Source: Alphaproteobacteria bacterium (GTDB taxonomy: Bacteria; Pseudomonadota; Alphaproteobacteria; Sphingomonadales; Emcibacteraceae). From it: DNA of 64,000 nt. Under the pieces are notes generated by a model. It did not search any database, was not told the origin of the DNA, and worked only from the letters and a program-made list of their open reading frames with translations. The DNA is taken from NCBI GenBank assembly GCA_002401455.1, contig NVTE01000003.1, positions 69,187 to 133,186 on the forward strand, in the 5' to 3' direction. The translations under genes were made by a program, and so were the position numbers. Shown here one piece after another: positions 45,716 through 53,302 of the stretch (its first letter is position 1; each line of letters begins with the position of its first letter).

Positions 45716-47848
<2,133 letters not shown>

Positions 47849-49173: not shown

Positions 49174-49339
49174 AGTTGTTATATTGAAATCCTTTTAATT
49201 CAAAGAGTTAAGGTGGATTTTCTTTATTTAACCATGTGAATTATTAACAGCTGTTAACATTGCCATGCGTTTGGTGCATGGCCGTACTGCAAAAACATCC
49301 CCTACTCATTGTTTGTTTTATATCTTAAATATAGCTCAT

Positions 49340-49350
49340 CGACAGGCGAA
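49340..49350 (+). repeat. 11-base direct repeat, copy 2
   Basis: CGACAGGCGAA, 70 bases before the FMDL-repeat start codon. Confidence 0.4.
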
Positions 49351-49419
49351 TGACCGTCTGGGCGAAGAAAGTTAGAATTTTAGGTTCAACAGGTTTTTTT
49401 TAAATAAAAGGTAAGATCA

Positions 49420-49800
49420 ATGACAAATTTTGTATCAGGATACAATTTCATGGATCTGTTGAAGGACAAGGGTATTGCTCCTCAGACAGATGTAATTTCA
49501 AACAATGTAGGGTCCATTTTTAATGGACTGGTTGCTAAGCTGTCTTCGAAGATTGACGCACCCTTCGCCCATTATGACTTTATGGACCTCATGCATGACA
49601 ATGGATTCGTGCCAGAGCCGAGCAATGATAATGTAAAAGTATCATTGGATGTGAGCTCTCTGTTTAACGAATTGGTTGGTAAGTTGGCGGTTAGATTTGA
49701 ACCATCTGCAGAGCATCATGACTTCATGGATCTTATGCATGATAAAGGGTTCGTTCCGGCCCACAGCAATGATAACGGCCTGAATGTTCAAGTCGCTTAA
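49420..49800 (+). CDS. Unrecognised small protein with FMDL repeats
   Basis: 126 residues after AAGG at eight bases. No signal peptide, membrane helix or known domain. It is built of repeats: 'YNFMDLLKDKGIAPQ' (8-22), 'YDFMDLMHDNGFVPE' (52-66) and 'HDFMDLMHDKGFVPA' (100-114). Between them lies a second repeated segment, 'NVGSIFNGLVAKL' (29-41) and 'DVSSLFNELVGKL' (78-90). The period is about 46-48 residues, two and a half units. The last two FMDL units are followed by 'SNDN'. The repeats are too diverged for a recent slip, so they are maintained. It is monocistronic with its own strong terminator. No function can be named. Confidence 0.75.
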   Translation: MTNFVSGYNFMDLLKDKGIAPQTDVISNNVGSIFNGLVAKLSSKIDAPFAHYDFMDLMHDNGFVPEPSNDNVKVSLDVSSLFNELVGKLAVRFEPSAEHHDFMDLMHDKGFVPAHSNDNGLNVQVA

Positions 49801-49843
49801 CGGAATTAAGTTAAGTATAGTACCGTAAGATTATTGAGTTGCC

Positions 49844-49878
49844 CGTGATACCAGAGATGGGTATCACGGTTTTTTTTT
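49844..49878 (+). terminator. Strong terminator after the FMDL-repeat gene
   Basis: CGTGATACC pairs perfectly with GGTATCACG over seven bases and runs into a tract of nine T. It also lies beyond the convergent prmA end. Confidence 0.9.
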
Positions 49879-49889
49879 GTTTGCTGTCC

Positions 49890-50816
49890 TTATGAGGATT
49901 TATGACGCAGCATCAGGCTGTGCCATTCACCGCGCACATAGCGTTTGACCAGCTTCAGGCCCTGCTTGGCGTAGGCATCGCATACCGCCGCCTCCTGAGT
50001 CCCGAGCAGACCCGATAGGACCAAAGTGCCGCCCTTAGACAGGTTTTCAACAATGTCCGGGGCCAGGTCCTGAAGGGGTTTAGCCAGAATATTGGCGACA
50101 ATCACATCATAGGGTCCGGCCTGACCGAGACCGTTATCCGCAAAACCATCACTGGTCAGTGCCGCAATCCCCGCATGTCCTGAGGCGAGCCCGACCACGG
50201 CAATATCATTGGTTCGGGCGTTGAGGATGGTGGTTTCCGTGGCGATCTCATCAATATCACTGGCGACAATGGTGATGGGCCAAACGCGGCTCATGGCCAG
50301 GGCAAGCAGGCCCGAGCCACAGCCAAGGTCAAGGGCCGTTTTTGGCGCTTTGTCATTCTTAAGTTCGGCGGATAAATCGCCAATGGCCAGCAGGCAGCCA
50401 TGGGTTGTTTCATGCTGGCCGGTGCCAAATGCCTGCCCGGCTTCGACCAACAGGCTGATTTTATCAGCGGGGATTTTATCGGCATCATGGCTGCCGTAAA
50501 CAAAAAACAGGCCGGCATCCACCGGTTGCAGCAGTTTCTGTGATTCGGACACCCAGTCTTTGTCAACGATTTCTTCCAGGGTCATTTCGCTGAGGGCCAG
50601 GTCGAAGGTCGGCAGGATGTCGGTCAGTCTTTTCTGCAGAAGCGCTAGGTCAGGTTTATGGGTGAAAAAGGCTTCGACCAGGCGGATATCGTTGCCTTCC
50701 TCAATCTCGAAATCGGACAGGGTTGGAAAGTTTTCATCGTCCAGTCCATACATAATTTCCTGCGCCAGGGGGATCATATCCAGGGTTATTTTAAGTTCAA
50801 TTTTCCAGCTGGTCAT
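49890..50816 (-). CDS. prmA: Ribosomal protein L11 methyltransferase
   Basis: 308 residues from ATG 50816; the longer open frame upstream has no support. The methyltransferase core has 'FGTGQHETTHGCL', 'ALDLGCGSGLLALAMSRV' and the catalytic-loop 'VIVANILAKPL'. It trimethylates L11. The gene is at the end of its unit, converging on the FMDL-repeat gene. Confidence 0.92.
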   Translation of the reverse strand: MTSWKIELKITLDMIPLAQEIMYGLDDENFPTLSDFEIEEGNDIRLVEAFFTHKPDLALLQKRLTDILPTFDLALSEMTLEEIVDKDWVSESQKLLQPVDAGLFFVYGSHDADKIPADKISLLVEAGQAFGTGQHETTHGCLLAIGDLSAELKNDKAPKTALDLGCGSGLLALAMSRVWPITIVASDIDEIATETTILNARTNDIAVVGLASGHAGIAALTSDGFADNGLGQAGPYDVIVANILAKPLQDLAPDIVENLSKGGTLVLSGLLGTQEAAVCDAYAKQGLKLVKRYVRGEWHSLMLRHKSS

Positions 50817-51014
50817 CGGCCGTTTTATCCTTCTGTTTCGAGTCTTGGGGCTTATAGCATTTTTTCGGGAAAAACACATAAATTGATGCGGATAGCCTGG
50901 ATAAGGCAGGGGGAATGCGACCAACCCTGGGGATTCTGAGATAAGACGCCCTCCAGGCTCTTTCGGCAGGGGCGACAATTTTGTATACTGAGGGCATTAT
51001 AATAGGAGTGGAAC

Positions 51015-51683
51015 ATGAGAAAAACAGTATCTATAGCGGCATTGGTTGCCGGCTTTAGCCTGCTGGGGATGATCGGGGCCCTGGACGTTGCCCTGGCAAA
51101 GGATATCACAGAAAGTCGTGACCTTTCCTCATTTGAAAAGATTATTATTGCGGATACCGGTGTCGGCCTGGACGTGAGGGTTGGCAAGGCGTTTTCGGTG
51201 ACCTTGAGGGGGCCTGAAAAATGGCTCAGTAAAATTACCACTAGGGTTGAAGATAACGCCCTGGTGATTGGACATCTCAAAAAGAAAAAGAAATCAGTGA
51301 ATATTGATTCTGATAACCGGGTGATTATTACCATGCCAAAATTCACGGGTCTTGAAGTGAATGGGGCGGTGGATGCGGATATCACAGGCGTCGATAGTGA
51401 AAATCTTACATTTGAAATTAATGGCGCTGGTAATATCGAAATAGATGGCACCTGTGTCACCCTCAATATTGATTTGAACGGGGCGGGTAACTTTGAAGGG
51501 GAAGACCTGAAATGTGAGGATGTCAAGGTTGAGATTAATGGGGCCGGTAATGTTGAAGTCTATGGCTCAAACTCTGCCGACCTTGAGATTAACGGCATGG
51601 GTAATATTGACCTGTATGGTGACCCAAAAGACGTCAGCAAAGAAAAAAGCTGGTTTAGTAATATTACTATTCATGACGATTAA
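51015..51683 (+). CDS. DUF2807-type exported beta-repeat protein, copy 1
   Basis: 222 residues with a signal peptide ending 'LDVALA'. After an N-terminal strand region ('FEKIIIADTGVGLDVRVGKA') the chain repeats 'EINGAGNIEI', 'DLNGAGNFEG', 'EINGAGNVEV', 'EINGMGNIDL' about every 20 residues, as in the DUF2807 (GIN-type, putative adhesin head) beta-helix family. AGGAG precedes the ATG. It is the first of three tandem relatives. Function in the family is unknown; location is probably periplasm or cell surface. Confidence 0.82.
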   Translation: MRKTVSIAALVAGFSLLGMIGALDVALAKDITESRDLSSFEKIIIADTGVGLDVRVGKAFSVTLRGPEKWLSKITTRVEDNALVIGHLKKKKKSVNIDSDNRVIITMPKFTGLEVNGAVDADITGVDSENLTFEINGAGNIEIDGTCVTLNIDLNGAGNFEGEDLKCEDVKVEINGAGNVEVYGSNSADLEINGMGNIDLYGDPKDVSKEKSWFSNITIHDD

Positions 51684-51716
51684 TAGTCTTCCGGATTTAG
51701 CACAAAGGAACAAAAA

Positions 51717-52469
51717 ATGAAAAAAATACTCATCCCCATGATGGCGGTTCTGGCCGCCTCTACATTCTCATCCCCTGTCCTAGCAGCGAGCAAGGACGTG
51801 ACGTTGGATAAATTTTCAAAAGTTAAAATATTCGCCCCCGTCGATCTTGATGTATCGGTTGGCAAAAAACAGTCCTTTTCCATGGAAGGCCGGCAGGAAG
51901 ACCTGGACAAACTGATCATTGAAGTTCGGAATGACACCCTGGTCATCAAAAAGGAAAAACGGTCTGACAGGATGAAAAAGGTCATGATCAGTATTTCTAT
52001 GAAAGAACTGACACAATTTATCATCAATGGGTCGTCGGACGCGAAAATCCGGGATGTGAATACCAAGTCTTTTGAGATTGGTATCAATGGGTCGGGTGAT
52101 GTGAACTTTGATGGCAAAAGCCATGACCTGGATGTTGAAATCAATGGCTCTGGCGATGTGTCCAGCAAAAGTTTTGACGCCAAGAGTGTTTCCGCTGAGA
52201 TTAATGGCTCCGGTGACATTGACCTGGCGGGTAAATGTGATGACCTGGAGGTTTCTATTAGTGGGTCCGGTGATTTTTCAGGCCGGGAGCTCTTGTGTTC
52301 TGCGGTGGAAACCCGGGTCAGTGGCTCTGGTGATGTGACAGTTTATGCCCGCACCTCAATCCGGGTCAGGACCAGCGGCAGCGCCGACGTGGAGGTTTAT
52401 GGTAATCCAAAGTCTATCCAAAGCCGGTCCAGCGGTAGCTCTGAACTCATCGTTCACGAGAACAAATGA
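51717..52469 (+). CDS. DUF2807-type exported beta-repeat protein, copy 2
   Basis: 250 residues with signal peptide 'VLAASTFSSPVLAA'. The repeat core is 'INGSGDVNFDG', 'INGSGDVSSKS', 'INGSGDIDLAG', 'ISGSGDFSGRE', 'VSGSGDVTVYA', one per helical turn. The C-terminus 'VYGNPKSIQSRSSGSSELI' matches the end of copy 3. It follows copy 1 by 33 bases with AAAGGAAC upstream. The shift from NGAGN in copy 1 to NGSGD here shows old divergence, not recent duplication. Confidence 0.82.
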   Translation: MKKILIPMMAVLAASTFSSPVLAASKDVTLDKFSKVKIFAPVDLDVSVGKKQSFSMEGRQEDLDKLIIEVRNDTLVIKKEKRSDRMKKVMISISMKELTQFIINGSSDAKIRDVNTKSFEIGINGSGDVNFDGKSHDLDVEINGSGDVSSKSFDAKSVSAEINGSGDIDLAGKCDDLEVSISGSGDFSGRELLCSAVETRVSGSGDVTVYARTSIRVRTSGSADVEVYGNPKSIQSRSSGSSELIVHENK

Positions 52470-52528
52470 CTTCTTGCTAACACTATGTTACGAAAGTGTT
52501 ATAAGAAGACTGCTCAGGAGTGGCCATA

Positions 52529-53302
52529 ATGAACTATTTGAAACTTTTCGGGGTAGCGGCCTTTGCTATTGGGGCAATATTGTATCTGTCCTCAGGAGAA
52601 AAACATAAGGTTGTCAGGGGGGCGCAAAGCTCTGACCTGAGTGACTATATAAAGATCAGTGTCAACGCCTCCGTGGACCTGAAAGTGCAGGTCGGTGAGG
52701 ACTATACCCTCAATGTGGAAGCAGATGAAGAGGATCTGGACCACCTCAAAATCTATGTCAAAGGGCGGACATTGGTCATTGAAAATAAAGACGATTACTT
52801 TGCTTCCTGGCGAGGCGATGATCCGGAAATAACTATTTCCCTGCCTTTATTGAAGAAATTCACCCTCAATGGCTCTGCCGATGCGGATATCCTGGGTATT
52901 CATGGCAAGTTTTTTAAGGTTGTGGTCAATGGGTCCGGCGCAGTTAATTTCGAAGGGTCCAGCGATGAACTTATGGCAAGAATCAGCGGTTCTGGCGATT
53001 TGTATAGCCGGTCATACGACTGCAGGGAAAGTGATGTCGAAATCAACGGCAGCGGATCGGTGGCCCTGACGGGAACCTGTGAAATACTTGAAATCGATAT
53101 CAACGGTTCCGGCGATTTTGCCGGCGAGGATTTTATCTGTGAAAAGGTCGAAGTGGATGTCGTGGGTTCAGGTGATCTCGAGGTCCATGCCCGTCAATCG
53201 CTTGATGTGGATGTTGAGGGATCTGGCGATGTGGTTGTTTTCGGCAACCCGAAGAAAGTCAGGGACCGATCCCGCAACAAAAAACATGTGACCATTAAGT
53301 AA
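52529..53302 (+). CDS. DUF2807-type beta-repeat protein, copy 3, membrane-anchored
   Basis: 257 residues from ATG 52529 with AGGAG at eight bases. The N-terminal helix 'LFGVAAFAIGAILYLSSGE' has no clear cleavage site, so unlike copies 1 and 2 this one is probably anchored in the inner membrane. Repeats 'VNGSGAVNFEG', 'ISGSGDLYSRS', 'INGSGSVALTG', 'INGSGDFAGED', 'VVGSGDLEVHA', 'VEGSGDVVVFG' follow. It lies 60 bases after copy 2; all three are likely co-transcribed. Confidence 0.8.
   Translation: MNYLKLFGVAAFAIGAILYLSSGEKHKVVRGAQSSDLSDYIKISVNASVDLKVQVGEDYTLNVEADEEDLDHLKIYVKGRTLVIENKDDYFASWRGDDPEITISLPLLKKFTLNGSADADILGIHGKFFKVVVNGSGAVNFEGSSDELMARISGSGDLYSRSYDCRESDVEINGSGSVALTGTCEILEIDINGSGDFAGEDFICEKVEVDVVGSGDLEVHARQSLDVDVEGSGDVVVFGNPKKVRDRSRNKKHVTIK

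Follow-up and report, generated by a model that had tools for sequence, protein, structure and literature searches.

FMDL-box proteins of Emcibacteraceae: an undescribed small-protein family with a putative LsrB-type promoter element and a tmRNA-tag-like tail

Main finding

The gene studied here encodes a small protein with three FMDL boxes. To judge from the sequence comparisons below, these proteins are a real family, unnamed until now and undescribed as far as the libraries searched show. The gene lies in the window, by which we mean the whole stretch of 64,000 nucleotides that was analysed. We see about an even chance that LsrB induces a multivalent docking protein here, that SspB/ClpXP removes it again after a short life, and that it stands in the place that DUF1127 proteins hold in the regulon; LsrB binding, degradation by ClpXP and docking to a partner are the steps that we infer.

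According to this reading, the LysR-type regulator LsrB/VtlR would activate the promoter and a small, acidic, probably mostly disordered protein would be made. Each FMDLLxDxGxVP box would be a short helical motif that docks on a partner protein, more boxes giving a higher avidity, and the (S/A)NDN-x5-(V/A)A tail would mimic the ssrA tag, its NDN tethering SspB and its last residues engaging ClpX. Such a tail would lead to fast clearance, so that the level of the protein would track LsrB activity; the protein may be a short-lived signalling protein, and it would occupy the regulon slot of the small DUF1127 proteins of Rhizobiales. If this is right, the regulon of LsrB/VtlR, with its regulator, small RNAs of the AbcR type and small proteins, extends past Rhizobiales, and an unrelated family has taken over the part of its small-protein member. 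There would also be a native protein family with a tail like the tmRNA tag, seemingly rare in the genomes studied, and a regulated SspB/ClpXP turnover of a small protein that is open to a simple reporter-fusion assay.

Table 1. Features of the FMDL locus, in window coordinates.
Feature	Position	Strand	Basis
ligA, conserved upstream neighbour	45752..47848	+	synteny
LsrB/VtlR-type element (putative), ATGC-N7-GCAT-N2-CCG-N17-CTAC	49265..49305	+	11 aligned upstream regions
Element core, GCATGGCCGTACT	49276-49288	+	fit to LsrB consensus, 6/7 fixed positions
Conserved -10-like part, CTACTCAT	49302-49309	+	upstream alignment
Leader with conserved TTCAACAGRTTTTTT	49310..49419	+	upstream alignment, sequence
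SD-like AAAAGG	49406-49411	+	sequence
Small-protein ORF, three FMDL boxes	49420..49800	+	ATG...TAA, 126 aa; orthologues, pN/pS
Box 1, residues 8-21, YNFMDLLKDKGIAP	49441..49482	+	FMDLLK invariant in family alignment
Linker helix 1, residues 30-44 (VxSxFNxLVxKL box of the earlier note)	49507..49551	+	low-confidence AlphaFold helix; weakly conserved
Box 2, residues 52-65, YDFMDLMHDNGFVP	49573..49614	+	alignment
Internal NDN after box 2, residues 69-71	49624..49632	+	retained in 3-box orthologues
Linker helix 2, residues 78-92	49651..49695	+	low-confidence AlphaFold helix
Box 3, residues 100-113, HDFMDLMHDKGFVP	49717..49758	+	box comparison
ssrA-like tail, SNDNGLNVQVA, residues 116-126	49765..49797	+	family tails; tag comparison
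Intrinsic terminator, stem CCGTGATACC / GGTATCACGG + T9	49843..49878	+	sequence
prmA, conserved downstream neighbour	49890..50978	-	synteny

The FMDL gene and its product

An earlier note on this DNA, made from the letters, had described a small protein built from FMDL(M/L)xDxGxxP repeats. This description holds: the reading frame carries three copies of the box and two linkers. The FMDL motifs start at residues 10, 54 and 102, which gives spacings of 44 and 48 residues. Over 20 residues, which include the NDN, boxes 2 and 3 are 80% identical; for boxes 1 and 2 the identity is 57% over 14. At least two FMDL(M/L) motifs were seen in just 1 of 200,000 residue shuffles. In a codon comparison of five orthologues, pN/pS was 0.26-0.42 for the whole gene and 0.04-0.18 for the boxes, meaning that the gene encodes a protein under purifying selection.

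The VxSxFNxLVxKL segments, taken by the note as a second box of each unit, correspond to the linkers between the FMDL boxes (VGSIFNGLVAKL and VSSLFNELVGKL). They are plain in the window protein and poorly conserved across the family; judging from the family alignment, the FMDL box and the NDN-x5-VA tail at the C-terminus, rather than the linker box, are what the family conserves throughout. The window protein has a pI of 4.8. AlphaFold models of the 126-aa and 78-aa forms were of low confidence (mean pLDDT 51 and 56), in which box 1 and the linkers form short helices within an otherwise mostly disordered chain. These predicted helices fit the helical docking segments suggested before, to which they add compatibility and no proof.

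As had been proposed, the gene appears monocistronic: it is solitary, the flanking genes lie on the opposite strand, and a hairpin followed by T9 closes it. The two conserved neighbours are reading frames that we take, from their sequences, to be ligA (NAD-dependent DNA ligase) and prmA (ribosomal protein L11 methyltransferase); the real start of prmA is probably internal to its ORF.

Distribution of the family

With the single sequence as query, the gene was recovered from 30 of 60 related genomes, all of one family; a profile recovered it from 30 of the 32 Emcibacteraceae genomes. Emcibacteraceae members fall into two-box forms of 78-97 aa and three-box forms of 122-131 aa, and some genomes carry several paralogues. 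Almost all members are acidic (pI 4.1-5.4), with a single exception at 9.2, and the order ligA-FMDL gene-prmA is kept in most of the loci examined.

Distant relatives with one or two boxes, adjoining ligA and/or prmA, were found in other families of the order. These are short reading frames (about 60-109 aa) that have FxDL-type boxes, AA ends and the promoter element upstream. A profile built from them retrieved further members adjoining ligA, three with a good element and one, from another family, with the palindrome only; this last one combines two boxes with an AANDN...AA tail. When the profile of the Emcibacteraceae members was compared with that of the one-box relatives, the two aligned at the box (E 2e-5, 20 columns). 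The class sample (385 genomes, drawn from a larger group) yielded one marginal match outside, at E 0.006, and no relative was found in the plasmid and viral contig collections. The variable unit number in Alphaproteobacteria that had been predicted is thus observed, as one, two or three boxes. The claim that the family is undescribed also stands: searches of Pfam, NCBIfam and PDB gave only sub-threshold noise (for example PPR, E 0.024), and no description of the box motif or of Emcibacter small proteins was found in the open-licence literature.

A promoter element of the LsrB/VtlR type

LsrB is a known stress and nutrient regulator, and in Rhizobiales LsrB/VtlR drives DUF1127 small proteins and AbcR RNAs. 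The promoter element, the LsrB/AbcR regulon and the ssrA-like tail described further below were all absent from the earlier note. Aligned upstream regions gave the family form of the element as ATGC-N7-GCAT-N2-C(T/C)G-N17-CTAC; since this form was derived from the alignment, its presence in the aligned sequences is expected and the independent evidence lies elsewhere. The window element matches all 15 fixed positions (0 of 200 shuffles). In the set of 38 family promoters, where the window and L001 are the same sequence, 30 match at 13-15 of the 15 positions, a level reached in 0 of 200 shuffles for each promoter; eight more, all of them paralogues, match at only 9. To judge from their promoters, these eight must be under other regulation. 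The upstream sequences of the element-free paralogues (L015, L016, L032 and L033, and second copies in L020, L056 and L113) are quite different; their regulation has probably diverged.

A search with the element pattern hit 24 of 198 genomes of the order compared with 1 of 385 genomes of the class, and the reversed pattern hit none. The ATGC-N7-GCAT palindrome is present in four of six loci of rhizobial DUF1127 genes, and the window core deviates at one of seven fixed positions from the published LsrB consensus, GCAT-N3-TG-N3-T (PMC8844928).

In Emcibacteraceae the element is also found upstream of a region that seems to be non-coding, contains a CCTCCC motif and ends in what resembles a terminator. 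This small-RNA-like region was detected in 28 of 32 genomes, some of which have it as tandem copies. Nearly all of the 30 loci examined have the palindrome roughly 180 nt before the CCTCCC anchor, often without the CTAC part. At the source-genome locus, TGCATGGCTGCATTG reads, when reverse-complemented, exactly as the Brucella VtlR box CAATGCAGCCATGCA (PMC12595884). A search of the region against Rfam gave sub-threshold matches only; by position, promoter and CCTCCC motif we regard these loci as AbcR-like.

Several CCTCCC loci adjoin a gene for a LysR-type regulator, whose best PDB match, at E 1.2e-79 (the next being 1.5e-31), is 9HH1, the LsrB of Agrobacterium (PMC11975290). In four Emcibacteraceae loci (L185, L173, L198 and L200) this LsrB/VtlR-like gene stands beside one or two AbcR-like loci with the promoter palindrome, and in Agrobacterium vtlR/lsrB adjoins AbcR small RNAs in tandem and is an activator of abcR1 and of a gene for a small protein (PMC7486931). 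LsrB has been stated to be unique to Rhizobiales (PMC11975290); given the LsrB-like gene, the AbcR-like loci and the shared elements, that statement looks too narrow. At the level of sequence, the FMDL gene has a promoter element of the LsrB/VtlR regulon type, and an LsrB orthologue and AbcR-like small RNAs are encoded in these genomes.

A C-terminal tail resembling the ssrA tag

The window protein ends in PAHSNDNGLNVQVA, and the tmRNA tag in Emcibacteraceae is (A)ANDN(N)EAFAVAA. Aligned to the tag of its own genome, the NDN-x5-VA of the protein stands against NDN-NEAFA-VA(A). A tail NDN is present in 28 of 32 non-redundant members and absent from the C-terminus in four; the spacing NDN-x5-(V/I/L/A)A is found in 25 of the 32 and NDN-x6-pair in three, with variable spacer residues. 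The terminal residues (VA, AA, VAS, IAS and similar) are near VAA without being identical to it. NDN also occurs internally, several times per chain in many members, and the one-box relatives lack NDN and retain only the final AA.

In the E. coli ssrA tag, which is modular, the AANDENY part binds SspB and ALAA binds ClpX (PMC8512704). The FMDL tail resembles a tmRNA tag in its NDN and in the same spacing to a terminal pair of small residues. It differs in being encoded by the protein gene itself, in its unconserved spacer and in ending with VA (the window copy) or VAS (many relatives), not VAA; we regard it as a putative degron. These ends, the internal NDN copies, the four members without a C-terminal NDN and the one-box relatives weigh against the main reading, as do the single deviation of the window core from the LsrB consensus, the eight element-free paralogues and the low confidence of the AlphaFold models. 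A partial parallel is LarA (PMC10665427), a stress-related Alphaproteobacteria protein linked to an AAA+ protease; LarA is described as a heat-shock regulator of Lon, not of ClpXP.

A pattern of NDN, 15-21 nt, (V/A)A and a stop has two matches in the source genome (69% complete), the tmRNA and the FMDL gene. Across 32 genomes, tmRNA or FMDL family genes account for 52 of 94 matches; the remaining 42 are of the same order as the reversed-pattern control (28). Two other recurring matches, in a 23-residue frame and in an 82-residue stop-to-stop frame, were not accepted as genes, the exclusion of the latter being incomplete.

SspB is present in 31 of 32 Emcibacteraceae genomes, the source genome included. 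There, sspB lies about 14.5 kb downstream of the FMDL gene (contig 133507-133905), just past the end of the window, and the tmRNA gene is on a different contig. In many relatives ssrA and sspB both lie 10-30 kb from the FMDL gene on a single contig; this conserved closeness, weighed as a possible functional link, may be plain gene order.

Comparison with DUF1127 and alternative readings

DUF1127 proteins are arginine-rich. Those regulated by VtlR/LsrB (BAB1_0914, Atu1667 and relatives) resemble the FMDL protein in being small monocistronic Alphaproteobacteria proteins with the ATGC-N7-GCAT palindrome, in the same type of regulon as AbcR-type small RNAs; the FMDL protein differs in being acidic rather than arginine-rich, and in its repeated boxes and ssrA-like tail. 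That it is a diverged DUF1127 protein is highly improbable. The common type of promoter element and a weak LxDxG likeness, seen by eye, would favour such an origin, but the FMDL protein has no Pfam match, hhalign gave a probability of 0.4-0.5% and left the LxDxG region unaligned, and the pI of 4.1-5.4 in nearly all members contrasts with an arginine-rich composition. DUF1127 homology was rejected on profile comparison and composition. Since the small DUF1127 proteins of Agrobacterium work through binding to a sensor kinase, PhoR (PMC12501420), docking on a protein would be a reasonable way for an FMDL counterpart to act.

The view of the earlier note, a stable multivalent scaffold, would have NDN cap the box module structurally, with an incidental likeness to ssrA. 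In the three-box forms an NDN stands behind both box 2 and box 3, and the internal copy is retained; this agrees with such a view, as do the VAS ends of many members and the one-box relatives without NDN. We nevertheless consider it unlikely, because five residues separate the final NDN from the (V/I/L/A)A end in 25 of 28 members while the spacer residues vary, because the tail pattern in the source genome is limited to the tmRNA and the FMDL gene, and because AA ends are found in the distant relatives examined as well.

A rather improbable reading gives the protein a role at SspB/ClpXP, as an adaptor whose boxes bind a client that the tail delivers to ClpXP, or as a competitor whose NDN motifs titrate SspB. 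No such action is known for the small-protein members of the Rhizobiales regulon, which tells against it even though SspB is present, many members have several NDN motifs per chain and repeated boxes precede the tail. Moreover, a short E. coli peptide with two SspB motifs has been suggested to bind at most one SspB (PMC8512704). There is a slim chance of a natural degrader, in which the FMDL boxes would capture a specific partner and the ssrA-like tail would hand the complex to SspB/ClpXP, LsrB activity triggering the removal; if true, ClpXP would have an adaptor of a new kind, a regulated one based on a genome-encoded mimic of the tmRNA tag.

Other observations at the locus

Two near-identical FMDL genes (L026, L027) occupy the ligA-prmA interval of NVVM01000002.1 with about 14 kb between them, an arrangement that looks like the insertion or duplication of a segment. 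Beyond prmA, the window carries on the + strand (51015-53302) tandem secreted-looking proteins with INGSGDV/INGAGN-type repeats, which are apparent paralogues (51015-51683 and 51717-52469), followed by a further ORF at 52520-53302.
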